Origin: Siderastrea siderea
Taxonomy: Eukaryota > Cnidaria > Anthozoa > Scleractinia > Rhizangiidae
Assembly (NCBI GenBank): GCA_964030785.1
Contig: OZ034971.1
Span: 39,698,804-39,762,803, forward strand
DNA length: 64,000 bases
Reading direction: 5' to 3'
A program made the position numbers and the translations under genes. The notes under the pieces were generated by a model, which was given only the letters and a program-made list of their open reading frames with translations, was not told where the DNA came from and made no database searches. Numbering within the stretch: position 1 is the first letter of the stretch; every line of letters begins with the position of its first letter. Positions 6,891 to 54,218 of the stretch are shown here, one piece after another.

Positions 6891-9308
<2,418 letters not shown>

Positions 9309-15495: not shown

Positions 15496-15660
15496 CTGTA
15501 TTAAATGTTATTCTGATAGTATTTTTGAAATGGCATTCAATTTTACTAATAGTAATGTCTGGGCAATTTGCCTGGCAACTAACTAACCTGCCAGTAATTA
15601 ATTTCCTGGTTACTTTTATTATTTTGTCTGAGTACTGACAAATTTAATTCAGCTGATCTT

Positions 15661-15910: not shown

Positions 15911-16002
15911 CTCCTGATACAACCACCCACGTAAATATTACTTGGCCAGTGGGAATGCAATATGCCTTAGTGCCAGGCTTCTGTTGCATGCAACATCCAA
16001 TA

Positions 16003-22490: not shown

Positions 22491-22497
22491 ACACCTT

Positions 22498-23505
22498 ATC
22501 ATCTGGTGCGTGGACCGCGTGCTGTCCAAAGTTCATAAGGTCGCATTGTTCCAAACGTCCAAACATTGTTCCAAGTACGTCGTCTTGTACGTCAAACTCA
22601 ACAAGGCCATAAAATATGCTGTTGGCGATGTTTAGTCTCTTCATCATTAAGTCAAAGAAAGCGCAGGAATGCTACCTCAACGATCTCATCCCTTCACGAC
22701 CTTTGCAAATTTATCACAGGATTCGACATGGGACATTGGTTTTGTGATATCGATCATGGAAGACGAAGAGCCAATGTTTTCCCCATAGACAAACTGGTTG
22801 GCAAATGATGACCACACTTGTTCTTTGCACACGTGGCGCCCTTATCGTTCTTCTGTCAGTCAGCTGTCCAACCAACTCATAGAAGAGGCAGAGGGGATGC
22901 AGTCGCCGTCCCATGCACTACCTTCTGTTCGCAACTGAATCAGGATGCGGCTATCTTCTAGATGTCCTAAGCTGCCTCACCTACAGAACACAACCTTCGT
23001 TTCTCTGTAAAAGCCAAAGAAAGAAGCACATTATCGACATTTTCTACTCTGTCCGATGCAAGGCATTTTACAACTTTTTGCGTAAGCCAATCGACGATTT
23101 CCTGAGAAAGATCACTAAAAGTTACAGTAACTGTAACTTTTAATTTCTACTTCACCAGTCCAGAGGAAGAACAAGATGATTCCGATGCACCAGACACCCA
23201 AATCCAGCTCATTATTAGTCGAATATATTTCGAAGAAGTTCTCAAGTCCGCCAATGAAAATCCTCGATTTTATTTTGTAGGGAGACCGGCGATTGCCGAA
23301 AACGTGGAAAACATATGCAAGAGAAAAGGAATGAGGTTAGTGAAGGATTACACTAACGGACGGGGAAGCGACTGAGAAGACCGCCGTTTGTTGATAAAGT
23401 GTCTTAAGATAAGCTTCTGGGTTTTATTTTTCATTATTGCCATTTGCGTTGTAGCCGGTCTTGTTATAGATGTTAGGAGCATCAGATCAAAAATTCGCTA
23501 AAACG
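22498..23505 (+). pseudogene. NOX/ferric-reductase-like pseudogene (C-terminal half)
   Basis: This matches 51204-52240 of the intact gene at high identity by eye, beginning at ATCTGGTGCGTGGACCGCGT. It lacks the N-terminal exons and the first four membrane segments. It has a rearranged segment at 22525-22570, several indels, a 3-bp insertion that brings TGA into frame at 23373-23375, and a changed stop region. FAD- and nucleotide-binding motif codons (HPFTTFANL region, Gly-rich ATxSGCGYLLD) are still readable. Homology continues about 2.3 kb past the gene into the 3' flank, so this came from a DNA duplication and not from retroposition. Confidence 0.9.
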
Positions 23506-25801
23506 CATGGCTTGAATGCGACATAGTATTGATAGCCGAAGGACTAAGCTGTATTAGAAGCTTTGAAACACATTGTCGTAGAATACGCTTAGGAATTTCG
23601 CCAGGAAGTAATTGTTTTATGATTCTTTCTTGATTAGAATTCAGACTATATTTACTGCATGCTCATTTGTCTCAAGTTTGCTCTGAATGACGCCTTCGAA
23701 ACAATGGAAAGTCGAACAAAAAAAAAACGTACACACAAGCTTAGCTACGAAAAATGTTTCGAGATTTTTTTTTAAAAGAAATGTCAAACCTTCAGGGCCT
23801 TACAGGTGAAAACCAAGTGAAAGGACTTGAGCGACGCGAATATATCTTGTAATAGAAAACATATTCACCCTCTTAGTCGTCTGAAGACTTTTTAGATTTA
23901 CCTACGTATGATTATTCCATAATAAGGTTTGTTTAACATAGTTTCGTATTAAATAATCGCCTTTCTATGTAGCTCTATGTAGTCAGTACACGCTCAACAC
24001 GGCTGAAAGATAGCGATGAGACGGCGTCGCATTTCCAATAGTAGATGAAAAATCTGTAGCTATTCGCCGTTAGTCTTTCTACTTCCACAACAAAATGGAA
24101 ATATTTTATAGTTTGTTATTTAAGATATACTAATCCACCCAGCAAAGAGTAGGTGTCGCAGTTTTCTACTTGTTCCTATACACTCAGGCCACAGACTCAG
24201 TCACAATCAGTGAGAACACAAGCCAACGCTGTTTTTTTCCTCTTTCGCGCTCCTCTTGTCCCTCACAATTCAGACAGACATTCTTGTAAACCAACATTGA
24301 TAGGACAGGGAGACAGATTGTGTCCCACCTAATGCGTCTTACTGCAGTTTATGCCCCAGCAACGTTTTAATCACGTGTTCTTAGCGACGTTAAGGTCAAC
24401 GTAGCTCGGCGCTTAAATAGTTTTTGCTTCGTTGTCACTGCAGCTTTTCTGTGCACCTTTTACGGACTTAAGACGGCAAAAGGAACACTCTACGACGCAG
24501 TGGTTAATTACGGATAACACATGGAACTAACCAAAGGAACTGCGTAAACGAAATTACTGACTGTGGTACAAATGTACTTCACGCTGCAAACAGGGAAAAT
24601 ATTTGCTGACGTCATGACCCGGGCATCAAACGTGTACCTTATTGGATTAAAGACGGTTCTACAGTAGCTATACTTTGCATAACAACTGCTTTAGTTAATA
24701 GAGTGTGTATTCTATAAAATAAACGTCTGCCATCTTAACCCAATCCGTATCTGTGTGAGTTGGTCGGCAAGTTTCCTTGCTTTGCATGGGCCAGTCTGTC
24801 CGACTACAAGCTCAAGAACTATGAAAGAAGGTAAGCGATTGAAAACGCTCCGAAAATGGGGATTTTGGAAACGCAGTCCAAAATAAAGATTTCGTCGTTT
24901 ATAAGTGCCCGGCAGAATTTAAAGATTTGTTGAGATTCAACCTTCCATTCTCGCGTTAACGATCGAAAACAAAGGTTTTGGAAAACGATAACATTGAACA
25001 GTAAACAAGTCAGTACAAAGTAGTCAAAGTAGCTTTTTCGAATGGAAGAAAAAAAAAACCGATTCACAGCGGAAAGAGGTGGGTGGGCCTTCATTTGTGG
25101 TAAAATACCAGGGTGTGCCTTCTCAGACGGTCCGAGGTCCGCCTGAGAATCAGGCTAAAGGTGTGCCATGTATTGAACTGAACTGAAAGCTATCAGTTTT
25201 AATTGCCTAACCATTTACTGTTTTCATACTGCAGCTCGTTTCCATGACTTCACAAATAATGTTTCCTTGAACCTCTGCTAATTTTTTAGCTTAAAAACTC
25301 CAACGTGTGTTAGCGGACCGTTCACCTAACGCACCTCCTCCTGCATGTACTCATCCTCTCCGCGAGTTCTTCTCTTCTAATGTCGAGTTGGCTCATTCTC
25401 GCTTTCATCCCCACCTTCTCCCCACCCCCAGTTGGTTTTACTTTGCACTTCCAATCGCATGCAACTGAATTCTAAACTAAGAATACGTTATTAAAATACG
25501 AGTCCACTGTTTAAGGTACATGTGATACTTAAACGCTTGCTGACATAAGATATCTAGAATACATTTGATATTCTAGTGTTGTATCTCTCGCGTAGTAATC
25601 AGTGAACTAAAATCAGTATATAATATAGTTAAAGGTGCCTTAAATTTGTCAGTAGTCAAAGGTGTTCTAAACAATTCCAACTTGTATCTTGATCATGCTT
25701 AGTGTCAATATCTCAGAGATTTTAGTTTATTATTAAAAGGCCAAAACTGCCAGTTGAAGTGCGTTTACCAATTTACCCTGTGAAAAATGGTACGAGTACG
25801 C
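22498..25801 (+). repeat. Segmental duplication, left copy
   Basis: Paired with 51204-54597 in direct orientation. Identity is high along the coding and flanking parts, with small indels. The left copy keeps about 190 bp (25555-25746) that the right copy lacks. The right copy has a 303-bp MITE at 54219-54521 that the left copy lacks. Homology ends at AGTACGC on both sides, on the left just where the foldback element begins. Confidence 0.9.
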
Positions 25802-25802
25802 C

Positions 25803-28800
25803 GGGTGTTACTAAAACGAGTAATGCAGTAACGAGTAACGAGTAACGCAGTAACGAGAAAACGAGTAACGGGAAAAATTTTTCAAGGGTAAAAAATAGAA
25901 AACGAGTAACGGGAAAAAAATTGAAAGGCAAAAATGAAAAGAAAAAGAGTAACGGTAAAAAATGAAAAGGGTGAAAATTACACTGAATAATAATAGTTAC
26001 TTAGGCAATGTAGAACTGTAATAAAACGAATAATGTGACCTGAAAGCCTTTGATGTGTGTTGGTGAAAAATGTTGTATTTAATGTCATTCTCGGGCAGGC
26101 TCCATAAAGAAGCGGCTATGAAGAAGTTTTTTCCGAATTTAGGGAATTAATCGATTTACATTTCAATTCCCTGTTCTCACTGCAGTGTACAGCGATGGTG
26201 CATTCGCTAGACATTTTTAATGACAGGGTTTAGATACCCGACAGCCGGGCACGGATATTTCAAGACTAAATACCAGGTAGTCCGAAATTTTCGATGGGTT
26301 TTGACCGAAAGGCTTATTCTAACGTTCTGCAAGACTTCGATATTTGTTTAGAATTGCCAAGTGATTCAGAAAAGTATTTTAGTTGGTAGTTGACGAGTTT
26401 TCTGAGCTTGTGCATACTAGAAAATTGCGATGTTTGCGACACTTATTAGTGGCCAGACCCGCTAGTCAGAAACACACAGAATTCCTCCGCTCTGGAAGAA
26501 CTGGATTCTGTAAGGATTCGGTATTCGTTAAGAATTGCCAGGCTATTCAGAAAAGTATTTTAGTTTGGTAGTCGACGAGTTTTCTGAGCGTGTGCTCTGA
26601 GTGTGCATACTAGAAAATCGTGATGTTTGCGACGCTTTATTTTTCGAGTTTAGTAGCTTAAGACCTGCAAGTCAGAAAAGCACAGAATTTCTCATTGAAA
26701 CGTCCTGGGGGTATTGGAAGTTTGTTTAGAATTACTAAGCAATTTAAAAGACTAATTTTGTTTTGTAGTTGACAAATTTTCTGAGTTTGTGCGCAGTAGA
26801 AAATCGCTATTTTCGCGACACTTTTAGCCAGAGCTGCCAAGTTTGAGTTTCGGTTCATTTCATTCATTCCTGCAATCGTTTTTATGTATAAATAGATTCA
26901 TTAACAGAAACACTGATTATTCATTTCTGTATCAATATCACTGAAATATTAGTTCAATAATTTGAAAAATGTATTTTAAACCTCTGAGCCGCCAAACTCG
27001 TGAACTGCCGGGCAGTTAATTTAGCTTTTTCCGGCGAAACTGCGCCCGGCTGCCGGGCATGAAGACACGGTTATTAAGGTCAGCTGAATACCCGGCACTC
27101 TGGTTTCAGAGAATTATACAGTAATTATTGAGGCAACCCTTCCTAACTTTGTATAGTGGTGGTAAGTGATTCGAGACTATCGTGGTTTTTTTGGGCCACA
27201 TTTACAACTCTACAGCGTCCGTGACATGTCACAGTATGGTGGCGTGACGGCTCGGGTCAGATAGGGATCAAGAAAGCTACCAGGGTCTGGTGAGCTACAG
27301 CTATTGTATAGCTTGCTAAAGCTCTGAACGTTCGCCAGCTACAAAACCAAATTGGTCTTTTAGTCGCTTAGTAATTGTAAACAATCTTCCAGTTCTTCCA
27401 GAGCGGAGGAATTCTGTGTGTTTCTGACTAGCGGGTCTGGCCACTAATAAGTGTCGCAAACATCGCAACTTTCCAGTATGCACAAGCTCAGAAAACTCGT
27501 CAACTACCTACCTAAAATACTTTTCTGAGTCGCTTGGCAATTCTAAACAAATATCGAATACTTTCAGGACGTTAGAATAAACCTTTCGGTCAAAACCCAT
27601 CGAAGATGTCGGACTGCCGGGTATTTAATAGTCTTGAAACATTCGAACCCGGCTACAGGGTATCTAGACACTGCAAAGAGGGTCCACAATAGGGTTCTCA
27701 GATCCCGCCATCCCGCCTATTTTTTCCTGTTAATCCCGCCGTTCCGCCCTTCTTTGCGTCGAAATCCCGATCCCGCCCAAATTTTTTAATATTCTTCTAT
27801 GTTCATGTTGAAAACATCACATACCTTTTATACAACGGATAGAAGACAAGTTTTTATGGATAGCAGACAAGTTTTTATACAGCGGATAGCAGACAAACAC
27901 GTTTTTATGGTCGACGTTTTTGTGGTCTCGATATCGCCACTAATGACCCTAATGTGTGTTTTGTTTGTGTTATTCTGTTTTACCTTATCTTGTCCAGGTA
28001 TTAGTGAAAAGTAAAGATTGACAAAGATTGTTTGTTACGATATTCTCGGTCCTGCTTTTTTTGGAAGACAACCGAGTGTTTAAAAGAAAGGGTGGTTGTA
28101 CAGCCGTTAGCGCGTCGGGGTTTTGATCTGAAGGTCCGTGCGTTCCTTAGACACAAAAGTTTTCTCCACATTGTTTCTCTACACCCAGCTGTATGTAAAT
28201 GGGTTTCATCTTTAGACAAGTATAGGGGCACAACAGTCATACAAGATTGGTCCAGTTATGAGGTCTGCAAAAATGAAATATACTGAAAAGATTTATAAAA
28301 GTGGACTCACCTAAAAGTTTATTTCAAAGCTTTCAGCGTCTTTATTTACCTTCAGAAAATCTCTGCTCGGAAGTATTCTTTTCGAAGAAAGGCATTCCTG
28401 CTCGCACTCCTTTATAATATATAGCAACAAAATTTATGATGTCGAATACCTGGTTTTCGGCGACCGTCGTTACATTCCCGTTCGCCGGGATTGCCATACC
28501 GGCTAGACTAACCATAGCTGTTCCTACCAACGCTCCATGGAAAGGGTCAGAAAAGTCAAGAACGCAGACAAGAAATGCAACAGGACATGTGACTTGATAC
28601 CTCTTTCTTGTGATGAAAGTGACGAGAATAGAAATGTCCGAAATCAACACAAAACATCACAAAAGGACTCATACTAGCTTGACATTTAGGCTACTCTGCC
28701 TTGGCCGATTCATTACTTGAAAGCCGGCCCACTTCATACACATAGGGTCCATTTTTGTCAGCCTACGCTGGTACATAAAATCCCCGGGATAAAATCATGC

Positions 28801-29426
28801 AGTCTCGTAATAATTCAAATACCGTATCCCGCTACTTTCCCCTTGCGATTCTCGCATCACGACCCCTTAAAAACACAAAATCCCGCTCCCGCTCGTATTT
28901 GAAATTCCCGCTTCCCGCTTCTGTTTTCAGCTCCCATCCCGAATATCGCCACAAAAATGACCCAAATCCAGCATCCCGCCAAACCTATTGTGGACCCTCT
29001 GCAAATTACTATTCGAAGTCTAGCGAATGCACCGTCGCTGCACACTGCAGTGAGAACGGGGATTTGAAATATATATATCGATTAATTCATTAAATTCGGA
29101 AAAAACTTCTTCATAGCTTCTTTATGGAGCCTGCCCGACAATGACATTAAATACAACATTTTTCACCAACATACATCAAAGGCTTTCAGGTCACATTATT
29201 CGTTTTATTACAGTTCTACATTGCCTAAGTAATTATTATTATTCAGTGTAATTTTCACCCTTTTCATTTTTTGCCGTTACTCTTTTTCTTCTAAGTTTTG
29301 CCTTTCCATCTTTTTCCCGTTACTCGTTTTCTATCTTTTACCCTTGGAAAATTTTTCCCGTTACTCGTTTTCTCGTTACTGCGTTACTCGTTACTCGTTA
29401 CTGCATTACTCGTTTTAGTAACACCC
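25803..29426. mobile_element. Foldback element with ~700-bp inverted arms
   Basis: The left arm is 25803-26505. The right arm is the reverse complement in two parts, 27390-27677 and 29006-29426, interrupted by another insertion. Both arms total about 705 bp. Tips read GGGTGTTACTAAAACGAGTA, followed by a cluster of AACGAGTAACG words. The central loop (26506-27389) contains about three degenerate 190-bp tandem units starting near 26353, 26533 and 26728, plus CCCGGCTGCCGGGC palindromes. There is no transposase-like frame. No target duplication is visible: the left flank is ACGCC and the right flank is CAAACC. Confidence 0.85.
27678..28999. mobile_element. Element nested in the foldback right arm, 6-bp TSD
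   Basis: The terminal inverted repeats GAGGGTCCACAATAGG (27678) and CCTATTGTGGACCCTC (ending 28999) are flanked by the direct repeat TGCAAA at 27672-27677 and 29000-29005. Removing 1,322 bp plus one copy of TGCAAA restores the arm homology exactly, confirming the boundaries. Subterminal sequence is rich in TCCCGCC words on both sides. A degraded tRNA-SINE-like head lies inside at about 28100-28150. No transposase frame was seen. Confidence 0.85.
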
Positions 29427-30450
29427 CAAACCGAATAACGTTTCTTTAACAGATGGATGGTGATTGGAGTTGTTCACGCTATTAAACCATTGAATAACTC
29501 TCCTTTGTAAAGCTTTTGAAAATGAAAGTATGCTAAATAGAGTCTTCATTTCCGCAATATAAACAATCCCCGTCATCTTTAATACCAAAACGGTGTAGCT
29601 CCTTCTTAGTGATTATAATTCTATGTAAGAACTTGTAGTGGAATTCTTTCAATTTATGTTCTTTACAAATTCGTTTTGTCAACTTAAAAAAGTGCCCCCA
29701 ATAAGTGGAGTTTAGATTCAAATTTTTGCTCCATTTCGTTGGGCCGGTAGGAAAAGAATGATTAACCTTATTATTTAGTAGCCAGTAGAAATCTTTTGCC
29801 TTTGCTTTCTCTAAGTCAATTTCGATGTTTTCCTCTAGTTGGAACTTGGATTGATCTCCCAAATAACTTTCTTTTGGAAGTTTTCCAAAATTACGTGCCC
29901 TTGTTAGAAGCGTTTTAGGGATGGCATTTATAACTTGATAAAATTTCAAAAAATTGGTTTTACAGTCATATTTCCTTTGGAACTGTTGAAAAGAAATTAG
30001 CTGTCCGTTTTCATTTAAAAGGTCCTGAATAGATATGATTCCTTTGGAAAACCATTCTCGAAGAAAGAATGGCTTTCCCCCTGTAAGGATAGCTTTGTTG
30101 TTAAAAAGAATTGTTTCCTGTCCTTGTTGGTAGTTGTACTTAGACTTTAGTTCCGAAAAAAAAGATAAAATGTCTTTGTAAAAGATGGGTAATTTAGGAT
30201 CTAAGTATTTTGCATCGTAATTACACCTAAGGAAAAAATTTAATCCTCCAAGTTTTGTGAAAAAATAATTTGATACTGATTTCCAACTGCGTCTTTCAGG
30301 GTTAAGTAGTCTTGAGATCCAAGCCAGTCTTAACCCCTTTATCGTAAGATCGATATCCGTCATACGGATTCCATCTCGATCATAATCCTGATAAATGCTT
30401 TCTCTTTTAATTTTGTCCTTTTTTTTGTTCCATAAGAAACTGAAAAGCTT
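29427..30450 (-). pseudogene. L1-type LINE ORF2, C-terminal segment
   Basis: Minus-strand frame from 30450 to a TAG at 29533-29535, starting KLFSFLWNKKKDKIKRE and containing GLRLAWISRLLNP and the terminal Cys motif CLYCGNEDSI. It corresponds to the region after the RT domain of L1-clade ORF2. The first codons continue exactly where the ORF2 segment at 43178-45696 stops. After the TAG, similarity to coding sequence continues with frame loss to about 29427, where the foldback element tip begins. The 3' UTR and poly-A tail are missing. It is inactive. Confidence 0.85.
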
Positions 30451-30965
30451 ACCCTTGCACCAAGAGCCTGGTAAAAAGTCTGGTAAACCTGGTCAAGTCT
30501 GGTTCAACCAGACTTACCAGGCTTTTGTGAAGAAAACAAGTCTGGTAAAAAGTCTGGTAAGGCTGGTTTTACCAGGCTTTTAGGGTAAGCCTGGTTGTAT
30601 TGTACCACAGAAGCCTGGTAAGGCCGGTTTAGGGACGAAAATTATAACCTGAAAAGTCAGGTTAGTCTGGTTTAACCAGGCTTTTATGGCGAGTCTGGTT
30701 CGAAAAAATTACCTGAAAAGCTTGGTTAGCCTGGTTTAACCAGGCTTTCTTGGTACGTCTGGTTCAAAACCAATACCTCAAAAACCTTGTTTGTCTGGTT
30801 TTACCAGGGTTTTCCAGAAAGTCTGGTTCGAACACATCATATGCACCTGAAAAGCCTGGTTAGTGTGGTTGGAAAACATCACAGTACTTGAAAAGCCTCA
30901 ACCCCAATGTTCTAAGAATTCAAAAACCTAGAAGCCCAGGTTTCCCTGGGCTTTCCAGGCTTTTG
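30451..30965. repeat. CCTGGTTTAACCAGG array, left end of the 12.7-kb block
   Basis: Words AGTCTGGT, AAGCCTGGT and ACCAGGCTTTT alternate on both strands. A higher-order unit of about 64 bp starts with CCTGAAAAG at 30648, 30712, 30776 (variant) and about 30846. The array shares the phrases AGTCTGGTAA and AAGCCTGGTTT with the array at 42600-43177, in the same orientation in part and inverted in part. Confidence 0.9.
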
Positions 30966-31871
30966 GTTAACAGTGTTTGATAAACGGTCCAAGCAATTCT
31001 TATGTGCCTCAATGATAATTTTTATTGCAAACTGTAGTGCAATTTCTAATACATATTCTATGGAAATTCAAATGGCCAGGGTATAAAATATAAACATGCA
31101 CTGCAATTGCCATACCACCAAAACCAACAACGTACAGTGAATAATGATTATATAATGTATATCTTAACAAAACTTTCTAATACCAAATCGATTTTAAACA
31201 TGGAGCAACCCTATAAACATTAACTGAACTCTAAGTTGGCTTATGACTTTTCAGCTTGACAAGTGACGGCCTAGGGATTAAAAATGGTTGTGACATTCGA
31301 CACATTTACAGGTACACACACTGTACTTTGCAAAATTTTACTTTGGTTGACTGAAATATTTTAGTCTCTACTGAAGAGCCAAACAAAAAAAAAATACAGT
31401 TAAAACTAAAGTGTTGCATTGCACTGTCGTCTGAAGATGTTGATTAAGATACTTTACAGAACGTGATACATTTGCAAAATAATACTTATCAGCCAGAGCT
31501 TTTACGACTGCAAATCAAACTCAGCAGAGGAACCAAAAATGTTTCCATTGCTAGACTATTAAGTCATCAACCACTCCATAGGACCGTCTGCACACAGGCT
31601 ACTGTAACGTCCATTGTTTTGACAAACACTTGTACAAACCATTAATTAAAGCTTAACAATTCTAGTAGAGGGTTAAAAATTTTATTTCTTTCAAAAAATA
31701 TGAATTCTCCTGTACATCTTCCAATTGCCACTGGATTTGATTCTTTATGCAGTGGTCTCACAAACTGTGATTCAGATTTTTTGCATCTGTTTTTGCATCT
31801 GTGTTTGTTTGTAAGCTGCTAATGTTCCATGTGTCAGTATGGATTAGAGATAAAAAAGTACTACTTGTACC
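30966..31871. other. AT-rich interior, possible minus-strand 3' UTR end
   Basis: There are no coding features. A TTTATT at about 31019 gives AATAAA on the minus strand and could be the poly-A signal of a minus-strand transcript starting in the CpG-rich segment near 35.4-35.9 kb. This is speculative. Confidence 0.25.
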
Positions 31872-32526
31872 TTAAGGACGTTCGCGCGAAAAACTTCTAC
31901 AATACAGATTTTTTTAATAGTTCGGCTACAGTCAGATAATGAGTTACCTATGTCACAAATGCAAAAAAATTGGGGGGTCACCGACTTCGTTTACGAAATA
32001 AAGCGCGTGGAAAACTACCCCAATTTTGACACATCAGTTCTCGTAACTCGACATGGCCTCGGTGCTTGTTAGTTAAAAATGATTAGCTGTAGACCCACTT
32101 TCCTAGTCACATTTTATTTAAGTGGGTCTGTCAAGTAAACAATGTGAACCGGTGTCATCCTTTTAGTTAAACTCAACCTCTAAGATGGACTTTTACGAAC
32201 TCCGTGCAGCTACAATAATAACAAAATTTGATGATGCGAGGGCAGAAAAGTTGAAAAAAATCAAACTTCCACAATACAGATTTCTTTAATTTTTCACAAA
32301 ACGTAGATAATCGACAAAGAAAGTGATCTATCAAAAGAATATATGGGGTCACCGAACATTTAAGAGAGTTAAACCCATGCATAGATATTAAGGTGCCCAC
32401 TAGCGCTATATATTTCCACATTTCTTCAACAGCGCACGCGCTCAATGCATGACGTGGCATGACATCGCGAAGTGGATTGCGTGCGCAGTAAGGATGGGCA
32501 GAAACAATTAGCGCGAACGTCCTTAA
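31872..32526. mobile_element. TTAAGGACGTTCGCGC MITE
   Basis: Perfect 16-bp inverted ends, TTAAGGACGTTCGCGC and GCGCGAACGTCCTTAA, bound 655 bp. The TTAA may be target duplication rather than element. The interior has two related half-copies containing ACAATACAGATTT and GGGGTCACCGA. It is nested in the 12.7-kb block. A larger, diverged copy lies at 2820-4090. Confidence 0.85.
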
Positions 32527-35330
32527 GAAAATAAGCTAAAACTTTGAAATAAAATTAAAAATTCACACTGTAAGGCTGAGAGATAAAAGGCACTACATGT
32601 ACCTCTGGAAAAAAGCCAAACCTTTCAAATAGAAGGAAAATTGAAATTTGCGGACATGGTATTGCTGAAAAACTATATTACAACTTTGGCTGAATTTCAT
32701 CAAATTGGTTTAGGAGCTGCTCACTTAGAATTTAAAAACACATGCACAATTGCCACTCACGCACAACTGCAAAGCAAGCTCTTGTGCAGTGATTACAATG
32801 TATGTACTTTGATATTACAAGTACATATTATATTTCAATCTAATTTTGCTAGCATTTGTCAAAAACAAATTAAAAAGATATGCCCCCCAAAATCTCTTAT
32901 GTACATTACAATGTAACTTAACTTAGAAGTATGTTTTTGTGCTTAGAGTTTTTTTTTTTTTTGCCAAAAGATATGAAAAATTATCAAGTTATGTAAAACA
33001 GTCAATTTGCCACTGGTTGATATCTTACATCATCATGTAATAAACTGAAGCTTTAGACTGAAAAAATGATTTTTCTCATACCTATTCATTTTTGTCACTT
33101 CACCTACAACGCAAAAATGAAAGGAATCTGTGAAGGTATAACTTCGGTGGGCTGTAGTTTCAGTTACTTGATCTCATTCAATACATGTACAGTGTATTAA
33201 CCATTACACGCAAGATAGAAAGCTGTTTCCACAAAAAAATCTGGAAAGAGAACGACGTACGTTGTGTGTACATGTTGACTTCAATTTGGTTTATTTTGAT
33301 GTCTCATTATGCTGGTTGCCACCTTCATCATGCTAGCTGACTTTGATTTTTAATTATTACATTCTTTCCTTCACAGCCCCAGTTTTCTTTTGAGCCTGGT
33401 TTTTTTGCCTCTTGATTCTTTTCCTCATTTATAACTTTTTGTGGCAAAAGTCCATGGCTAAACGAACATTTTAAACTTATCATTTTGATCTGAGTTTCAT
33501 CATGTAAAAATCTTACAAATATGTCTGAACTGCTAATGTGGCTTAATGTGTACATCTAACAAGTGATCCAAGCAAAAGTGTCTCACCCTACAGGATTGCT
33601 CCATGTTTAAACTAATGCCTCTGTTCTGTTCTTTTCAGTTTCAGGTCTAATTGAAAAAGTAACAAAAGTACACTGTACATATAAAGGGCCAATTTAGACT
33701 ATGTTGTATGCGACATGCTAATGAACAGCCTACAATGCAAGTTGTTCCATGCAAATAAAAGCTAAAACTTTCTCATGTCCGTCGTGCATGGCATAAAAAA
33801 TGCTGGAGGATTCTGAAATGTGTTAAAACCTTACGACAATCATAGCCAGAGGCAATGATAAATGAAGTGAACTCGTTGCAATATTTCCAATGATATGCCA
33901 GACCAGCAGCATAAGCAAAACTCAGACTATCTAAATAGGCCCTGAACTGCAAATGTTCTGATATTTCTTATCTGCTTTGTTGCCAAGGATTCCCTGTTAG
34001 ACTTGGAAGTACTGTTTTCAGTTTTTAATAAATGCACCTGGAAAAAAATACAAAGTAAAATAAACATAAATAAAATACCAAGGGATATAACCAAAAAACT
34101 GCAACCATATTGTACAGTTCCTCTCAGAGGAATAGGAGTAGCTAGTGCCTTTGGTACAGCATCTACATGCACACCTTTTGCGTGCTCTTATACATGTAAT
34201 TATGTACATGCAGCCCCTAATAAATGGTGTATTTTTAAACAGTGGAAAATACTATTGTATGCTTAACAAGCCAAATAGTCACTGAATGGACCCGTATATA
34301 CATGTACATGTGTATAGTATATACTCTCAGCCACTGACAAAATTTGAGGCAAAAAAGTACTGTAACAAAACAGAAGTTGATTGGTGAACTGTAACTCAGT
34401 GACTTGCAAAGGTCTTTGAAGGGCCAGCTCTACATGAAAGAGTGGGTGGACTGGCTAGTTTATTAGATTTCTCACCCAAAAAGGGTTAAAATGCTTGTCT
34501 TGTCCTTTATGTATAGATGTAGCCACCATTTAGTTACAAAACTGAAACAGTTGGTGGGTGACCATCTTGTATGTACAGTATTTAGCAAATAACAAAATAA
34601 ATAAAATAAATAAATAAATAAATAAATAAATAAAACATAAATAAAGTAGGGTTATTCATCCAGACAGGAAATCCATGCAAAGAGGCCCCACATAAATACT
34701 TTCCTTCAGCAACCATGCACGCTAAAGTATGTTTAAATAACAGTTTCAACTAATAGAACTTGACAGTACTGCTATTGCAGACCACCAGAAATTGAATTGG
34801 AAGTAAAATCTGAAGTTGACACATGTACATTATTTCTTATATGACCAAAAAGTGACATGTCAATAAAAGTTATCCTAAATTAATAATTCCCAGTCATTCA
34901 TGGTAGAAGGAATGCAAGAACACAATATCGGTAAGTTGATAAAAATTCACACCAAAACTGGTTCACTTTGATTTTACAGAAGGTAATGTTGATTGAGAAA
35001 TTTTAGAATATCCAGCCACTTATTTACTTGTGTATTAATGTTTTATGAACAAAAGAGACCATTCTTATTCAGTGACATGCAAATATCTTGCCAGATAGAT
35101 TCTAATTTAGCCTGTCTATATTTGCTCACCAAGTCCAATTTTTTGATCGTTCCGATTGGCTGCAGAACGAGAGTGCTGCTTGACTATAACACAGTCATTG
35201 AAATTTATTCGACCTATTTACTTGCAAGAAAAGTCAATATCTAAGAATTATTATTCTATATTCTTGCAAAAATCTAACTTATTAGGTAAAATTCGAATAT
35301 GCTGCAAATGAAGCTCACTTTTTTCACTGG
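32527..35330. other. AT-rich non-coding interior of the 12.7-kb block
   Basis: Short open frames only, with many ACATGTA/TACATGT words. An (AAAT)n microsatellite lies at 34594-34633. No exon with both borders was recognised. Confidence 0.45.
34594..34633. repeat. (AAAT)n microsatellite
   Basis: About nine AAAT units with slight interruptions. Confidence 0.95.
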
Positions 35331-35339
35331 ACATTTATG

Positions 35340-35935
35340 TTTGGTCGCCAAACTCGGCCGAGTATCTTACATGCACTTTTCTCACCTCAGCCGGACCGAA
35401 CGAACCAAAATGGCCGCCAAAGAGGAGGTAGAATCTATTCAAGAAATTTAAGAGTAATACTGTACCTTTGTGTAAGGGAGGGTAGCTCTGCATCGAATCC
35501 CACAACTCTTCAACTACTGGAGTAAAAAACTATCCACGTTTCACTTTCTGGCGCACACAAACACGGAGAAAACCAGCCACATTTTATCCTCCAGCTCCAA
35601 TAGTTGCTCCAGTATACACATTCACCGGTTACTTGCGCCTGCAATTCTCGAGCGTGCGGTTGTAAATCACATGACCCCTTGAAAGCGGCCCGGTCGCATA
35701 GCTGGGTAGCCGGCGGCGAGTTTCAAATAAAATGGGGTTGTGTCGGGTGATCGTACGTCAAAGTGGTTTATTACGCTATTCTTTAGATTATTTTCGCTTA
35801 CGATTAGCAAGGCTCAACTCAGAACGTGCTCTGTTGGAAGATGATTGTAAAGATGGTTGATGATTGCTCGATTCAAGTATGAACGGACTGAATTACCAAC
35901 GGACTGATCGATCGATTTCAAGGCCGGTGAGTACA
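35340..35935. promoter_or_regulatory. CpG-rich, possibly bidirectional promoter segment
   Basis: In an AT-rich setting, this segment is rich in CG dinucleotides (GGTCGCC, GGCCGAG, CGGACCGAACG, GCCGGCGGCG). On the plus strand a donor-like GCCG/GTGAGT occurs at about 35927. On the minus strand CCGGCTGAG/GTGAGA occurs at about 35391. A plus-strand ATGGCCGCCAAAGAGGAG lies at about 35410. These fit two divergent first exons. No downstream coding exon could be linked in either direction, so it may drive non-coding RNA or be a captured host promoter. Confidence 0.35.
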
Positions 35936-38900
35936 TGTAACCTCATTCCTCATAATACGTAGCTGGTATGACAAACATTTCATGTACATTTAATTTTCTA
36001 TGGAGGGCTTAAAGTTCCTTTCTTTGTAATATTCTGCCAAATGAGTGTAACAAGCTTTAACACACAGTGTAAGCGACGCTTACACTGTGAAAATTTGCAC
36101 GTTGCAAATCATAATCAAAAACGGCCTTTGTGAAATTGACCCCAAGTGGGACAGTGGTATCAAATAACAACGAAAGCCATTGTTCACACATGTGGCATTC
36201 TGTGACTTACACTTTTCACATCAAAGTGTGATAAGCCCGGCGTAGTAAAAGAAGCGTTTACCGACCAAGAAGTAGTCGACGTACCACTATCAGAACTTCG
36301 CAAATCCGAATAATTCGGATCAATTTGAGGAGTAGGCATTTCACATGTAAGCACGTACGTGTATCTCCATGCATCTACATGTATCATTGGTGATTAGTTG
36401 TAGATCATTTCATAGTGCCTACACGCTAACCAACAGTTCAGTTGAAATGCGTTTCACTCAGATACGTGTACACATTAACTTGAATACAATGAAAGCCTAA
36501 ATTTTTCTTTAATCACTCGTCAAAGCGGAGTAAACATGAAATGAAACATGCATAATTTGCCAATTAGTGAGTTCTTTAACGATTTATGAGATTTCTTGAT
36601 TTTTTTTAAGCAAAGATAGTGATGTGTACTAACATGATCAGATTTGATATTATTTGAATAGTAACAACTCCAGGTCTTGACACCATAGCATTTTTATTCT
36701 AGTGGCATACGGTGGAAATGTGTGCATTTCTCAAAGTCCTCTTTTCAAGGGAGTTTGCATATGGGAGTTTTTCATTGCAATCAGCAGTTCTAAAATGGTC
36801 ACCAGATTTGTGAACTTTCATCCCAACCTAATGTCCAATGTATACTTAAATACTAAACAGTAATTTATCCATGACAAACTCACAGTGGAGACCCTATACA
36901 CGTAGTAGTAATACATGTACACTAAATTCTCAATTTCAGGAATTGAATTCCTTCCTTTTGTATACAGTAGATGCCAGGGTATGAGGGGACATGTTGCAGG
37001 GACGTGTCACAGAGACACACAGCAGTGCGACACTGCAATTGTTATGCTAAAGGCATGTACTGTAGCAGGAACATCAGCAGAGAGGAAATCGAAAGGTGCT
37101 GACATTTTTGCAACAACATGTGACACCCTTTGGTGTGTGGCTGGTGCTTTTTGAGCTCATGCAACACAAATTTCAACATGTCCTTTCATGCACTGGCACC
37201 TTAAATTTGATTTTACTGCATGCATGGAAACTGCATGCCAAGTACCATGGCATTCAAAATAGCATGTCGTCCAAGTAAAAGCTAGAAGCTTGTCCAAAAT
37301 ACAGCCACCCATAACTCAGAAAAGATAACTAAAGTTGAGATTTAATAAAGGAATATTATTAATTCTGTTGTGCTTGTTCAGGATATGAGGTGATTTTTAT
37401 CAACTTTGTGCTATGCACCTTGTTGGGTACTTACCACCCTATACCCAGTACATACATGCTCATGGAGTGTTACATGTCACAGACATTAGGGTGAATAATG
37501 GTTCTCTTAGTATAATAATTATTATGCCACACAAGTTAATATCCAGCCCCACAGACTGGTACAGGTAACTTGTTATCAGATATGGACAAAAAACTGTGGA
37601 GGTGACCACTGTTGTGCTCAGAGGTGAATGGCATGTGATATACTAATTACACCTGTAGTGTGCAGAAAACACTATGAAAACAATGTACCTACTTGTTTGG
37701 AGTAGTCTACATGTAGATGAAAGAACTTTATAAATCCAGGAGGGCATTTGAGTGTCTCATGAATGTTAACTTTTTTTGAAAATCATCAAAACTGCTCAAT
37801 CATGTTATGGGAAAACAGCCTTCAAAATGGCAACTTTTCAATTTTTGGAATTCAAAAAATTATGTGCTTACTGACCTAAAGCAAGGGCTTTAAGGGGATG
37901 GTGTTCAGTGTGTCAAACTGTCTCCAGTGAGTTTTTTGTACTTTTGCCAAGAACCAAATATTAACTTACACATGTATTTTATCACACTATTTTTTTTATT
38001 CTTGATTTGTTTGCAAAATTATTGAAAGGTCAATCACACAATCAACTGGGCTAGATGACTGGCACTGTTTAGTTACATCCTATATAGAAGTTAAATTTCA
38101 GTTCAAACCTGAACCTCATACATCTACATGTACACTGCTCCTTCAACAATCTCCTGGGATCTGTAAAGTAGTTCATGTACTGTGGTATAGATGAAATTAA
38201 AGTATGATTTACATTCACCTTTATAGCTACATGTATGTGAGTAGTAAGTTTATTTTTTATGATCCATTTATTAATTTTACTCTTAAAATTTTTCATCAGG
38301 TTTCTACATTTGTTCACATTGTATCAGTATGACTCCAAGTTCTACAGCAAAACAGTTTCTTGATGCATGTTGTACATAGCAGGGAATGCATCACACATGG
38401 TCAGGTAGGTTACTCAAACATACAGCTACAATTAACGTTGTCAGAAAACCTACCCAATAAGACCACTAGGTGCTATGGGTAATCTATTAATAAATTTACC
38501 AAACTTAGCTGTGGCTCACCCCTACACAAATTAAATCACACAGGCAAGTGTTTATCATACTCTCAGCCCTCCTAGGGTAGTGACAACTGCGAAATTACAG
38601 CCGAATCACAAACGATTTTCAGCTACCTTTACTACCTTTTGGTCTCCTCGTGTAAGCTCAAGGCTGTAAAATCAGACAACGTTTTAGCTGACAGGTATAC
38701 ATTAGAATCCTCATGTTATGCTTCAAATTTGTGTTGCTTACGTGTAGATCTGTTTTCTTTAAACAAAGGACACGTACATGTACAGTGTATTGGGCGTTGG
38801 TTGCAGGCATTCCTTTTAAAGATTTTGACAGAATGGCATATGGATTCATGTCCTATGAAGACATTATCTCCTTGGTGATCATTGAATGCTTGAATTTTTA

Positions 38901-41167
38901 AGACATGAATACTAGATTATTGTGGACAAACCACAATCCCAAACAGTACACTGAAACAAAAGCCCTGCTGATATAGAGCCATGGTTATTAATATTGTAAA
39001 ATAATTACTGAAGTTGTAAATAATTACTAAGATTGGTCATTTATTAACCAAAAGAATGATGATACATGTACATGTGCTCAACAGGAAGCAATTGTGGGAT
39101 TAGGACACCAAGTTAAATCCCTAACTGAAGTCATACCCATGACCTTCTGCACTCCAGCTACATGATTGTAGTAATCTACAAGAAAACTGTTAGTGAAGTA
39201 GGTCATCTTACTAGGTTCATACTGTATCATGTCCTGCGCAGTGCTAGAAAGGGCAGTGTTGAAGGCATCTGACTGAATGGTGACCTTGTACTGTAAGTAA
39301 TGCCCTACAATACAGCTGTACACCTGTAGCTCACGTCTAGACTCCTATGTAATCTACATTCTGTACAATGTAGGTTCCTGTACATGTAGTGGTTAGAACT
39401 CCTGACTGGTATAGGTAACACCTCAGGTTCAGCTTCTCTTGGGGTCTCATTTCATTTCAATACATAACATCTACACCCAGTTACAACCACGTTAGACCAC
39501 CAGAGGCTAACTGCTTGGGATAACAGGGTTAAGACTACAATAGTAGTGTACATTGTATTTCCTTGCATCTGGGCTTTGAATTTCATGTCCACCATTTTCA
39601 TTTTTCAGTCACTTGATAACTCAACTTCTTATACCACCGTACATCCCCGCCAACACAATATTATATAAAAAAACTAGCTGGTACCCATGAACAATTCACC
39701 ACTCAACAACATGATATCTTGAACACTGACATCAATTTGCATAAGCAGTTGAAAGTAGTCACACATCAACAGCCATGGCACAGTGTTGCACATCCCTGCC
39801 AGGAAAGTATAGAAGTGGTGTGGTTTTGGCTTTTTGTAACTAAGCCGTTTTTCCATGATGGGTGGACAACAGTTCTCTCCTAGTGTATTATATACGATAC
39901 AGATGTATTCCGAGTTGATGTGTGTAGGGCCAGGTGGGTTGATGCAAGCCAGTCTGGAAAAAGCCATCCAGTCTTGCACACATCATCGGTTCATTCAACA
40001 CACGTGCACTTTAACATGCTTTGAGTATTTTTAAGCATAGTTTTGAAATTTTTCAAAAATGCATGTATTTACATGTAGCATGAAATTGGTGGTATGATAA
40101 ATGTGTATTGACAGAGTTAGGACAAGCCGGTTGTGGCACACAGACCTCGCTGTGCTCAGTCTGTACACCATGACCTTAAGCCAAATATTTTCCTGTCTGG
40201 ACCTCTCACTCAGTCAATAGGCACATCATTTTTGGAGATTTGTTGGAGTTCACCTAGTACATGAACATGTGAAAACCAGATCATCGTGTATTCACTGAGT
40301 GCAATACATGCAAACAGGATGTGTTCTGTTATGGTGTACTAGAAAATTGTATTCTGATCAGGGTTATTAAGGTTTTGAAATGGACTATCACTGTAATGCT
40401 TACGATGTTTGTCGATGCCACTAAAGCGACAGTTTATTTTAAGAAATCTTTCTTATTTTGCCACTCCGCAGCTTTGGAACCCAATACTTGACTAAAAGTC
40501 ATTAAATTAATATTTACACCTTTTACTAATTTTGTTCACTGCTTGAACTGTATTCATAATATTATTGTAAATTTACATGAACCGTTATATATGTTATTGA
40601 AAATTAACATTGCAACCTAATAATGTTGAGTGTTTGACAGGCCTGGAACTTTTTTTTAATTTCTTCTCAATATTTTTTCTAGGACTATGTCTACATGTAT
40701 AAGGCCATAAGAGGACTGAACTCAGAAGATTGTTAACCGCAAGTGAAATGAAGGCAGCCAAAACAGATACATTGTAAGACCGTAAATGTAAAATCAGTGA
40801 ATGTGTATACTCCCTGTTACTCATTGATTCTTTTCATTTGGTTTTGCCTCATATGCACAGATACACTGTAAATATTAAATTGATTTTATCTTTTAACTGA
40901 TATTGGAGATTTGTTAAAAAATAGACATTCTGAGGTAAACTGAATGTGGCCACAAAGTGACTGGCATAGAATACAAAGCGTCATACAGTGTACATGTACA
41001 TTTAATGTACACTGGGCTTGGGGTTTGCTGTAGTAGTCTTGAATGCAAGATAAACCTGGACAAATATTATTTTTTTATATTTTATCATTTCTCATTACAA
41101 CCTACAATGTATACCTTGTACTTGAAGATTTAATCAACTAGGTAGTATGCTGGTGCAGTATTATATA
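35936..41167. other. Non-coding interior of the 12.7-kb block
   Basis: AT-rich and dense in TACATGTA-type words. A perfect hairpin, CAGTGTAAGCGACGCTTACACTG, lies at about 36065-36088 (CAGTGTAAGC arm and its complement). At 36975-37060 there is a GACATGTTGCAGGGACGTGT-type dispersed repeat. Short open frames such as 36915-37154 have no borders or recognisable product. Confidence 0.45.
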
Positions 41168-42231
41168 AAGAACCAGTGTCACCCAAAGTGCTTTGCGTGG
41201 TTGTGCTTTTGTTTTGAAGTTTGGCTGGCACATTTGCCGGACATTTTGCAAATTATACCCTGCCGCACTGGCCTTTCAGCAAGCTGATATTCACAGTAGT
41301 AGCCCCTGAAAATGGTAATATCTTCCTCGCTAGATGTTACCAGAGAAAACAACTCTAGATCTGACTTTGTAGTCGACGCGTATGGAGCTTTTATAACAAC
41401 CGATCGATCTCGATCGATCGATCGATCAATCGATCTCGATTGATGTAAACCAGAGTAGCCACTTCCACTCAATATAAAAATAATAAGACAAAAACAAATA
41501 GTAAGAATATTGACGTCTTCATTGCTAGATGTCACTGGAGAAAACTGCTCAAGATCTGAGTTTGCATTCAATGCATATACATGGATCTATTACAGTCTGT
41601 GATCGATTGATTGCACGATTGATCGCATCGACCGATGTCGATGGACACAAAACCAGAATAGCCACTTATGCTTTTTGTAAAAATAAAACATAAGCAGACA
41701 GTGAACACAAGGAATAATTAAGCAAAACAGCACAAGCTCATGACCATAAGCATTATTTTGGAGCAAGCCCGTAGCTACCGTTATTTTGTGGTAAATTAAC
41801 GTTCCTTCTGTTTTCATTCGGCCACGAATGTAGCACTATTTCGGCAAACGCACTGTCAGTACTATTGCTGAAACCCGTAGATGTTTTTCTTTCCCTGCGC
41901 TACTGATACACGGACTCCTCCAGCTGTACAACTTTGGCAGAGCCCGGAAGACTCGGCCTTCGCCTCAACTTTCCTGAACCCTACAAGGCATCCAATTTAA
42001 AGATCTCCTTCTCCACCGCGAAAACACTTCAGAATTCGGAAATATACAACGAAATCGATACGGCGACACTTAAATGCCAAGTCAAAATTCACACTAGTGC
42101 TTTCGGATCGCTAATGGCAGCGATGGAAGAAGATACAAATCAGACTTCACGACAATCAAGAAAATGGTGTATTTTTCATATATGAAAAATGTACCTCGGC
42201 GCGCAAAGCACTTTGGGTGACACTGGCTCTT
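41168..42231. mobile_element. TA-flanked inverted-repeat element with internal tandem
   Basis: The left end AAGAACCAGTGTCACCCAAA and the right end (reverse complement AAGAGCCAGTGTCACCCAAA) extend as inverted repeats for about 30 bp to CTTTGCG. TA dinucleotides flank both ends, as for Tc1/mariner-type targets. Inside are two ~200-bp tandem units (about 41310-41500 and 41505-41710), the first carrying a run of CGATCGATC. A plus-strand open frame (41934-42185) is present but unrecognised. It is nested in the 12.7-kb block. Confidence 0.8.
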
Positions 42232-42313
42232 TAAGTAATTGTGTGTGCACATGTACATGTGGGCCTTTCATGATACATGTACTGTGTAACTCCTAGTTTT
42301 TGCATTTAGTTCA

Positions 42314-42555
42314 CCAGGGCCTGGCTCCATAAAGCAACTTAAGATTAAGTGCGAATTTTCTGCAACCATTTCCTTTGTTCTGGAGGACTTTTTGGCACAG
42401 TATCGCGGATAACTCGGCCGAAGACAGATTAGTGAGTATAGAGTAGAGTACTTTAGGAAACACAAAGAGAACACGAAGAAATCCTCCAGAACAAAGGGAA
42501 TGGATGCAAAAAAATCCCTTTTAATCTCAAGTTGCTTAATGCAACTGGGCCCAGG
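42314..42555. mobile_element. 240-bp MITE near the right array
   Basis: The two ends are inverted copies of a phrase containing AGCAACTTAAGATTAA and, further in, TTTGTTCTGGAGGA. The arms run about 70 bp each. It is nested just inside the right array of the 12.7-kb block. Confidence 0.8.
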
Positions 42556-42599
42556 ACTAATTATCCATGTTATCCATAGTTAAGGATACTGTGCTTTTT

Positions 42600-43177
42600 A
42601 GTCTTTTTGAACATTGGATACAAACCTCAGTTTACTGGTTTCCAATGCTTTCTTGAAATTTCCCAGCATCACCAGGCTTCTTAGAAAAACCAAGGTTACC
42701 GGGGTTGACCCAGATGTTATAGTAAAAAATAATGTACCTGAGTAACCCTGGTTATTCGGACAACCACGGTTACTGGGCTTACCAGGGAAACCGGGGTTAA
42801 CCAGTCTTTTTTGCACATAGGGTTCGAGTCTGGTAAGCCTGGTTTTCAGTAAAATGTGCTAACCAGGTTCACCAGGGTTACCCTGGTCAACCCAGACCTT
42901 AAGAGCCTGGTTAAACCCGGGTAACCCTGGTAATTTAGAAAACCAGGGTCACCAGACTTACCAGGGTACCAGGGTAACCTAGGTTAGCCCAGACTTCTCA
43001 GAGTCTGGTTAAACCCTGGTTACCCTGGTACGTCTGGCAACCCTGGTTTTCTAAATAACCAGGGTAACCAGGGTTACCAGACTTTTTTGCACATAGGGTT
43101 TGAGTCTGGTAAGCCTGGTTTAAGAACCAGGGTACCCTGGTTTTTTAACCAGGCTTTGACCAGGGTAAAACCCTGGT
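42600..43177. repeat. ACCAGGGTAACCCTGGT array, right end of the 12.7-kb block
   Basis: CCAGGGTAACC, AACCCTGGTT and AGTCTGGTAAGCCTGGTT words recur on both strands. A longer phrase, TTTTTTGCACATAGGGTT, followed by GAGTCTGGTAAGCCTGG, occurs at about 42808 and again at 43083, a period of about 276 bp. The minus-strand ORF2 frame runs on into the array by chance, adding about 15 non-homologous residues. Confidence 0.9.
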
Positions 43178-45696
43178 TTTCTTTGGATGGTGAATTGGAC
43201 TTCGGTTGGAGTGTTCAAATTAAAAGCTGCATAGACTATTTGGGATAGCCCAAGAGATTTAATAATCAAAGCCTTTCCAAACAAGCTCAGGTTTCTTGCT
43301 TTCCATAAATCCAGTTTCGTTTGTAATTTTTTGACTTTTAAATCGAAATTAAAATGTTTGTTCTTATTATCATCATATGAGAAATATAACCCTAGAATTT
43401 TGACAGGTTTGTTTACCCACTGTAATTGTAACGGTGTAGTTTTGTTCTTTGACCATTTTCCCAACCATATCGCCTTAGTGTTTTTTACATTTAATTTTAA
43501 GCCTGAGATGACTCCAAAGTTATTGACTATGTTGAGAGAATTTTCTACTGAAATAACATCTGTACAAAATAAGTTAGTATCATCTGCAAATTGACTAATT
43601 TTAACCTCATTTCCAAATAAATTAATCCCATTGATTTCAGTTGTCTGGCGAAGCTTGTTTGATAATATTTCTGCGCTCAATATGAAAAGATATGGGGAAA
43701 GCGGGCAGCCTTGCCTAACCCCTCTTGTCGGTTCAATCCAATTGGTGGTAAAGCCATTATTCAATACCGTACTTTCGATATTTGTATAAAAAATTCTAAT
43801 CCATCTTTTGACATTCTCGCCGAAATTGAAGAGATCTAATACCTTCATTATGAATTGCCATTCCAAGGTGTCAAAGGCTTTCTCAAAGTCTAGTGACACC
43901 AGAATGCTCCCTTTCTTTTCGGACATGGTGTACTCCATTACATCGTTTATCAGGCGTATATTTTCTCCAATATAACGACCTTTCATGAATCCGGTTTGAT
44001 CGGAGTGAACTAATTTTGGGAGTACTGATTCTATTCTTTTGGCTAATGCTTTAGATGCAATCTTATAATCAATGTTGAGTAAGGTTATAGGTCTCCAATT
44101 CTGAATGTTTAGTAGGTCAGAGTCTTCTTTAGGTATCAAAGTAATTACACCTCTTCGCTGTGAAATGGAGAGTTCTTTTTCTTCAAAGGCTTGATTAAGA
44201 CTTTGGATCAGATCGAATCCTATTAAATCAAAGAAGTGTTTATAGAACGCAGCGGTGAATCCGTCTTCACCTGGAGATTTATTGTCTTCAAAAGATTCTA
44301 ATATCTTTTTACACTCCTCCAAGGTAAAAATCCCTTCCATTTGTTCCTGTTCTTCGTTATTAAGTTCTGGGATTTCGATTTCCCGAATAAATTCATCAAA
44401 AGCTTCTTGGGTCACAGTTATTTTAGAGCTGTAAAGGTCCTCATAGAATTTCTCTATTTGTTGTAAGATTTTAACTTCTTCTTTTATTGTTACGTTATCG
44501 CTAGTTTGAAGTTCGGTTATTGTCTTCCTATTATAGTTTTGCTTCTCTAAATTAAAGAAATATTTAGTCGGCCGCTCTCCTTTCTCTACCCACCTGCATT
44601 TCGATCGGAAAATTGCAGCGCGTCTTTTTTCTTCGTATATATTGATTGAAACTCTGTTTTGAGGTTGTCGTACTCGGTTAACGTATTCTCTATATCTGAT
44701 AAATTATCACTGTTACATATTTCATGGTCTAGCTCTTCCAGTCGCTTGGAGATTGGTACTTCCCGTTTTAAAGCAGCTCTCGCTTTTCTTTTAGCAAAAG
44801 AGATGGTGTTGTCACGAATTTCCATTTTAATTAATTCCCATACTAGTCTTTTGTCTTTCAAAGATGCATACTTCTCACGTAATCGAGGAATAAGATCGCG
44901 GATTTTAAATATATAGCTGTCATCTTTCAGTAAGGTGTTATTGAACTTCCAGAATCCTGGTCCCCTTGGAGAATTGTTTGGTAATGACAGACAAAGAAAA
45001 ACTGTTTTATGATCTGGTGCTATTGAATTAGTAATTCCGATGCTTTTAATATGTTTTGTCAAGTTCTTTGCAATTAAAATAAAATCCAATCTAGATTTGA
45101 CGTTTAAGGCTTTGGATACATATGAATATATATTCAAATTGGGGTGACGAACTCTTTGTATATCTATTAAATCAAAAATTTCCATTGTCATAAGAAGAAG
45201 CTGACTCAAATGTGATGGTTTCCATGGTGTTCCGCCTTTTTTGTCTTTTTTTGATAGCGTGCAGTTCCAGTCACCTCCAACAATAAGGTTTGTCAATTCC
45301 GATTTGTCGATGATACAATTATTAAGCTCTTGTATAAATTCTAGTTGTTCGGATGGATTATTTGGTGCGTAGATATTACAGAATGACATTTTTAAACCAT
45401 TGATATTGACTGTAATAAGAGTAATTCTTCCTGTTTTGTCACTAAATGAGCAGTCTACCCTATGATTAATCGATGGATCTATTAATATGCAAGTGCCTTT
45501 GCTGTGTCGGGACCCATGGGAAAAATACATTTCGCCTCCCCATTCGTTTTGCCAAATTGTTTCGTCGTTTAGTTCTGCATATGTTTCTTGAAGGAAATAA
45601 ATACTTGCTTTTTGATCTTTTAAATATGTAAAGATGCTCCTTCTCTTAGTTTGGTCACGTATTCCCCTTACGTTTAGCGAAATTACCTTACATATT
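43178..45696 (-). pseudogene. L1-type LINE ORF2, endonuclease and RT segment
   Basis: Minus strand. The frame opens near 45696 with ICKVISLNVRGIRD (the expected start ATG reads ATA) and carries APE endonuclease signs: FLQET, GGDWNC and APDHKTV. A +1 frameshift near 44605 breaks the frame (CNSDNLS...FSDRNAGG then stop). The RT domain is open downstream: KSPGEDGFTAAFY, LLNIDYKIASKALAKR, DQTGFMKGR, ARGVRQGCPLSPY-type block and the catalytic QFADDTNLF. It stops at VQFTIQRK, where the palindromic array begins. The missing C-terminal part lies at 29427-30450. It is not active. Confidence 0.9.
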
Positions 45697-45908
45697 GAAT
45701 TGTTTTACATTTGAATGTAATTGTAGAAAAAAAACGCAAAAATAAAACCAAAACAAACACTTATGAATACAAAAGATAAACTAACGAAAAAAAATAAAGA
45801 GATTAAGCTTTCGCTTCGCCTTCTCAGTCCTCTTTGAGACTTCCCTCATGTTTAGACTATGTATAAAATAAGATGTAATACAACCTGCCAGCAACGTTTA
45901 TTTACTTA

Positions 45909-53811: not shown

Positions 53812-53852
53812 ATTCTCAGACGGTCCGAGGTCCGCCTGAGAATCAGGCTAAA
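53812..53852. repeat. Perfect palindrome AGCCTGATTCTCAG
   Basis: AGCCTGATTCTCAGACGGTC and the reverse complement of the same arm (CGCCTGAGAATCAGGCT) meet around CCGAG. In the left duplicate copy (about 25117-25156) the outer eight bases of one arm are missing, leaving an asymmetric remnant. The arms look like a tiny foldback insertion. Confidence 0.7.
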
Positions 53853-54218
53853 GGTGTGCCATGTATTGAACTGAACTGAAAGCTATCAGTTTTAATTGCC
53901 TAACCATTTAGTTTTTTCATACTGCAGCTCGTTTCCATGACTTCAAAAAATAATGTTTCCTTGAACCTTGCTAATTTTTTAGCTTAAACACTCCAACGTG
54001 TGTTAGCGGACCGTTCACCTAACGCACCTCCTCCTGCATATATTCACCCTATCCACAAGTTCTTCTCTTCTAATGTCGAGTGGACTCATCCTCGCTTTCC
54101 TTTCCACCTTCTCCCCACCCCCAGTTGGTTTTACTTCCCACTTCCAATCGCGTGCAACTGAATTCTGAACTAAGAATACGTTATTAAAATACGAGTCCAC
54201 TGTTGCATGTGATACTTA

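Follow-up and report, generated by a model that had tools for sequence, protein, structure and literature searches.

A 12.7-kb block inside a coral LINE ORF2 is very probably one copy of a non-autonomous, CACTA/EnSpm-like DNA transposon family

The window, i.e., the whole stretch of 64,000 nucleotides analysed here, corresponds to C6:39698804-39762803 of the searched coral genome (830.9 Mb, 402 contigs). The closest named homologues of its genes come from stony corals (Oculina, Desmophyllum, Montipora, Acropora, and Stylophora). A previous sequence-only reading had claimed that the window contains one LINE ORF2 split by a 12.7-kb block, and this is seen in the letters themselves: on the minus strand, the ORF2 runs as ...TEVQFTIQRK to the edge of the block and resumes with KLFSFLWN at 30450. 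The features of the locus are the following:

29533-30451, minus strand: downstream part of the LINE ORF2, beyond the element (reading frame and protein homology)
30450-30451, no strand: target dinucleotide TA, left copy of a 2-bp duplication whose right copy is missing (empty sites)
30452-43180, no strand: whole element copy, 12,729 bp, right end 21 bp short, family terminal inverted repeat (TIR) at the left end only
30452-30476, plus strand: left TIR CCCTTGCACCAAGAGCCTGGTAAAA, its 20-mer found nowhere else in the window with up to 3 mismatches allowed
30467-30860, no strand: left subterminal array of YCTGGT/ACCAGR hexamers in both orientations (hexamer count)
31877-32520, no strand: nested MITE-like insert, TTAA-type, termini TTAAGGACGTTCGCGC, absent from nine other copies examined
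42660-43180, no strand: right subterminal array of the ACCAGGGT/ACCCTGGT type (hexamer count, self-comparison)
42781-42845 and 43058-43121: duplicated 65-bp unit inside the right subterminal array
43180-43181, no strand: truncation junction, where intact copies go on with ACCAGGCTCTTGGTGCAAGGG and the duplicated dinucleotide, then flank
43181-45704, minus strand: upstream part of the LINE ORF2, with endonuclease and reverse transcriptase, the frame broken near 44.6-44.7 kb

Other repeats lie in the same window. An inverted pair at 25803-26212 and 29018-29426 (94%, CGAGTAACG arrays) perhaps represents the ends of another element beside the 3' part of the LINE. A 3-kb direct duplication (22495-25532 and 51197-54219, 91.6% identity) takes in part of a ferric-reductase-like gene at 50300-52243, and at positions 7819-8389 GACCCC is repeated 95 times without error, so that several reading frames stay open. 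An Rfam search of the window returned nothing.

The joined ORF2 flanks were used as the query in a protein search, which gave 1621 proteins at E <= 0.001 out of 7994 scored candidates. Among the best 120 of these 1621, the closest ORF2 homologue was P0001, with 97% identity over the searched part; it crosses the insertion site unbroken (...TEVQFTIKSKLFSFLWN), and 118 of the 120 carry an FLW..KR-type motif at this site. Joining 30451 to 43181 gives CTGAAAAGCTTACTTTGGATGGTGAA, which is present uninterrupted, and identical to the joined window flanks, at C6:39037409. Empty sites, which the sequence-only reading had proposed to look for in other haplotypes or related species, were sought in the same genome, where a 26-base pattern allowing up to 2 mismatches was found at 12 places, C6:39037409 included. 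Judging from these empty sites, the target is therefore ...GAAAAGCT[TA]CTTTGGATGG..., and together with the unbroken homologue they bear out the earlier claim of a single insertion. The block itself, placed before at 30451-43177, stands, and its edges are refined to 30452-43180. The in-frame, gapless join reported for it is correct as to the letters, but its exactness is partly an illusion: the native residues are IKSK-LF, and the window reads IQRK because AAAA is borrowed from the truncated end of the element. An assembly join or a segmental insertion with no transposon involved, against which the earlier reading had cautioned (the sole point in its favour), is contradicted by the empty sites and by copies of the block elsewhere in the chromosome-scale assembly, each with its own flanks and duplications. 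We consider this explanation almost certainly wrong.

When the translated right array was used as a query, seven proteins were returned. All seven extend past the right edge of the window copy, with QALGAR in six and QALDAR in P0121, before they diverge, and the right terminus in these relatives is the inverse complement of the left end of the window copy, CCCTTGCACCAAGAGCCTGG. This 20-mer terminus has 199 exact matches in the genome (112 on the plus and 87 on the minus strand; none for the reversed control), and the array word AGTCTGGTAAGCCTGG has 287 (control 0). Among the first 100 of the 199 ends, 37 neighbouring plus/minus pairs are less than 100 kb apart, 23 of them spaced by 11.0-14.5 kb. 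Other blocks with such ends, which the earlier reading had proposed to search for, are therefore present in the same genome. Nine full copies were read, of which seven measure 11.8-13.6 kb, while inserts enlarge the other two to 17.8 and 18.1 kb. Most of their length could be aligned with the window block, at about 87-97% in colinear stretches, and the interior of the block, which may be host DNA as the earlier reading had suggested, is common to the window copy and all nine. The divergence from an eight-copy consensus was 1.3-2.7% in seven of the eight copies and 6.0% in the eighth, whose insert probably disturbs the alignment. The typical length of the family is 12 kb; a short copy of 3,595 bp, flanked by a TA duplication, lacks most of the middle.

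Another copy of this 12-kb family was met in P0124, a JGI contig of 3,629 bp, in which the end of the copy is fused to a type-B DNA polymerase-like stretch (a weak Pfam match below the cut-off); the family may therefore insert into further mobile or viral-like genes as well. No relative emerged from viral contigs scanned with P0001 and two array/terminus patterns.

The family ends are of the CCCTTGCACCAAGAGCC type, followed by YCTGGT arrays. Intact copies carry a perfect 25-bp TIR, identical at both ends of the one copy shown, and TIRs are present at both ends of independent copies, the window copy keeping only the left one. For target duplications, 31 of the 37 neighbouring pairs were assessed; the pairs at C1:11798264, C1:31077063, C2:3040873, C3:37328703, C4:18354867, and C5:49676092 were outside this test, the first of them (46.7 kb) having the same outer flanks as a tested pair. 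Also left out were L023/L024 (right terminus altered in the first bases), L025/L026 (two left ends), L068 (a single end), L045/L046 (an incomplete copy), and L003-L008 (further views or unpaired ends). The flanking dinucleotide was identical in 28 of the 31 pairs (one being 3 bp) and differed in three, as compared with a mean of 3.5 and a maximum of 10 matches among 5000 re-paired shuffles. The duplicated dinucleotides were varied, with 12 kinds in the 28 pairs (AA 5, TA 5, TT 4, CA 3, GA 3, AT 2, and six others once each). Aligning the array edges of the copies, another check outlined in the sequence-only reading, has hence defined a 25-bp TIR and a 2-bp target duplication, and the duplication of 0-2 bp suggested there does not hold.

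The palindromic CCTGG/CCAGG arrays described earlier at both block ends are real. In the window block, YCTGGT/ACCAGR hexamers number 21 in the first 500 bp and 28 in the last two bins (500 and 226 bp), with at most 2 per 500-bp bin in the interior; in this copy and one other they occupy the outermost 400-550 bp of each end, in either orientation, and are scarce elsewhere. These arrays are the subterminal repeats of the element.

The left end of the window copy is normal, with TA followed by CCCTTG. At its right end, ...CCCTGGTTTT is directly joined to the flank CTTTGGATGG, so that 23 bp are missing, namely the 21-bp tip of the element and the second TA, and the loss reaches precisely to the target boundary. 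It is because of this loss that the junction appeared to be in frame with a 0-2 bp duplication. The break seems to involve zero shared bases. The 23-bp loss would fit an error in joining the right end when the element inserted; alternatively, the loss may be a deletion that followed insertion. As the earlier reading had it, the block might represent an undescribed class of mobile element, with arrays for termini and a target duplication of 0-2 bp; the window copy, viewed by itself, speaks for this in having neither a TIR pair nor a duplication at the right edge. This class, as it was stated, is already refuted by the other copies with their perfect TIRs and 2-bp duplications, and the window edge lies 21 bp short of the family terminus; we regard it as very improbable.

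The nested MITE-like insert has a relative at about 2800-4090 of the window. Homology to this region first pointed to a second related element; this was rejected, as the shared part is the TTAA-type MITE, which sits inside the window copy and is missing from the other nine.

Coding capacity was assessed in the block and in the family. The longest ORF of the eight-copy consensus is 137 aa, and outside nested inserts the longest ORFs of ten copies do not exceed 143 aa, as compared with a mean of 116 aa and a maximum of 172 aa in 50 single-base shuffles of one copy. None of nine ORFs tested, of which four were from the window block (one inside the nested MITE), three from the consensus, and two from copy B, had a Pfam match at the cut-off. 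Longer ORFs in some copies are part of inserts; by eye, one of these resembles a Penelope-type reverse transcriptase and another a Harbinger protein, the latter with no Pfam match. The ORFs of the block and the consensus are not above chance and the 12-kb element is non-autonomous, as the earlier reading had thought possible, though the element may contain short exons of a spliced gene. At such low divergence, a coding ancestor should still show, and therefore the spreading copy was probably already non-coding.

The Transposase_21 domain (PF02992), which was not found among the nine ORFs tested from the window block, the consensus, and copy B, has 127 matches in the genome. Three of them sit inside long TIR pairs formed by the first 100 of the 199 ends. 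The first is a 34-kb pair, rejected as an autonomous partner, as its match (E 1.5e-10) belongs to a 16,620-bp element at C1:5777.8-5794.4 kb nested in the family copy C1:5770644-5804705. Since this segment has its own CCC TIRs, CCCGTACGAAA, and an AT duplication, it belongs to a different family and is nested here. It resembles the 12-kb family in its CCC..GGG ends, 2-bp duplication, and dense family-specific subterminal repeats at both ends (AGCGC/GCGCT words: 12 in the first 500 bp, 10 in the last 620 bp, at most 3 per 500 bp between), and differs in its own TIR and repeat sequence, its Transposase_21 match, and the lack of any DNA match to the 12-kb family. The second, a 932-aa match in an 86.7-kb pair, was also rejected: it lies beside a GTGATCA array, and 18 kb read there contain no match to the 12-kb family. 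At this locus (L093/L094, C1:31136000-31153999), the 932-aa ORF adjoins the palindromic GTGATCA array, beyond which a CTATACA repeat extends for kilobases; this may be a further CACTA family. Of the third interval (46.7 kb, C1:11798264-11845009), the ends alone were read.

With TIRs, 2-bp target duplications, an empty site, dispersed near-identical copies, and a lack of coding capacity established for the family, the block very probably represents a single copy of a repeated, non-autonomous DNA transposon that moves by cut and paste and is of the CCC-type CACTA/EnSpm kind known from animals. A CCC core at the TIR end and a 2-bp duplication of no fixed sequence are both present, as in animal CACTA/EnSpm (TRC) elements, and so are, near either end, subterminal repeats in direct and inverted orientation, as in CACTA/EnSpm. 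As no coding capacity was seen, the family can be described as working in the manner of a CACTA element; its superfamily is provisional, a placement that we infer from the ends since the transposase moving the family was not found. Another superfamily of TIR transposons that duplicates 2 bp, such as Tc1/mariner, ISL2EU or other PHIS, or an unnamed group, is an unlikely source, albeit one to be kept in mind: a 2-bp duplication by itself does not identify the superfamily, and the stretches read around the first 100 of the 199 ends contained no partner combining the family's own TIR with Transposase_21. Tc1/mariner elements duplicate TA, against the 12 different dinucleotides among the 28 matching pairs. 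The same variety argues against ISL2EU, which does not fit because it duplicates AT, according to an excerpt of PMC4482050. In an excerpt of PMC2872659, piggyBac elements have CC[C/T]T ends but TTAA duplications.

Assuming the CACTA/EnSpm-like reading, the transposase of a CACTA-like partner would bind the YCTGGT/ACCAGR repeats densely packed in the two subterminal regions, pair the ends of the element, and cut at CCC/GGG, and the cut ends would be joined to a target cut with a 2-bp stagger. In the window, the target was the TA in the LINE ORF2, the right tip and the second TA being lost at insertion or later.

What appeared to be a classless insertion can now be assigned to a family with known ends, a target duplication, further copies, and an empty site. 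Its size is its unusual trait, at 12 kb with many copies and no coding capacity. On the view that non-autonomous copies simply become shorter, long and abundant coding-free copies would come as a surprise, and the family has spread to about 100 copies (199 exact ends), many near full length. The idea that the interior is useful, or is selected cargo derived from the host, strikes us as rather doubtful; if true, a non-coding interior would serve transposition, replication, or escape from silencing, or host-derived cargo would be under selection. There are also indications that CACTA-like elements of the coral bear long palindromic subterminal arrays, with a sequence private to each family. An array-only small relative exists at 705-1163 of the window, with 459 bp made up nearly entirely of AGGATCCT palindromes, CCCTGG..CCAGGG ends, and a TT duplication on its two sides. 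A third array at 15540-15953, of the GGCCAGGC type, ends in ..CTTGGCCAGTGGG, the reverse complement of which, CCCACTGGCCAAG, is CCC-type; no good partner end for it was found within the window.

The literature consulted on CACTA elements of corals or animals that bear arrays of this type, or on large coding-free DNA transposons, contained no description of the 12-kb family, which may have an entry in a repeat database such as Repbase. The earlier reading of an undescribed large mobile element is right as to a large mobile element; its termini, said to fit no known class, match the TIR CCC and 2-bp duplication of animal CACTA in an excerpt of PMC1636069, and plant CACTA elements have subterminal arrays too, according to an excerpt of PMC2613891. 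In the former, DeMarco and colleagues describe animal CACTA-related elements with CCC at the TIR end and a 2-bp duplication, found via a Transposase_21-type protein, including SmTRC1 of Schistosoma and elements of Tribolium and Aedes (4.5, 5.2, and 9.2 kb). These TRC/EnSpm elements are like the 12-kb family in the CCC core and the 2-bp target duplication, and the Tribolium TIR starts with CCCT and ends with GTAAAA, as does the TIR here; they differ in being 4.5-9.2 kb long with a protein, whereas the coral family, at 12 kb, has no recognisable coding sequence. The wider CMCT clade has mostly CA..TG termini, unlike the CCC..GGG termini of the 12-kb family (PMC12730594, in part). Plant CACTA elements differ in their CACTA core, 13-bp TIR, and 3-bp duplication, and the soybean element Tgmt*, at 20.5 kb, encodes a transposase, which the coral family does not (PMC2613891, in part). 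The same excerpt describes their arrays of short motifs as direct and inverted, capable of forming stem-loops, and divergent between families, and it is in this combination of a TIR with subterminal arrays in both orientations that En/Spm and Tgmt* resemble the 12-kb family.
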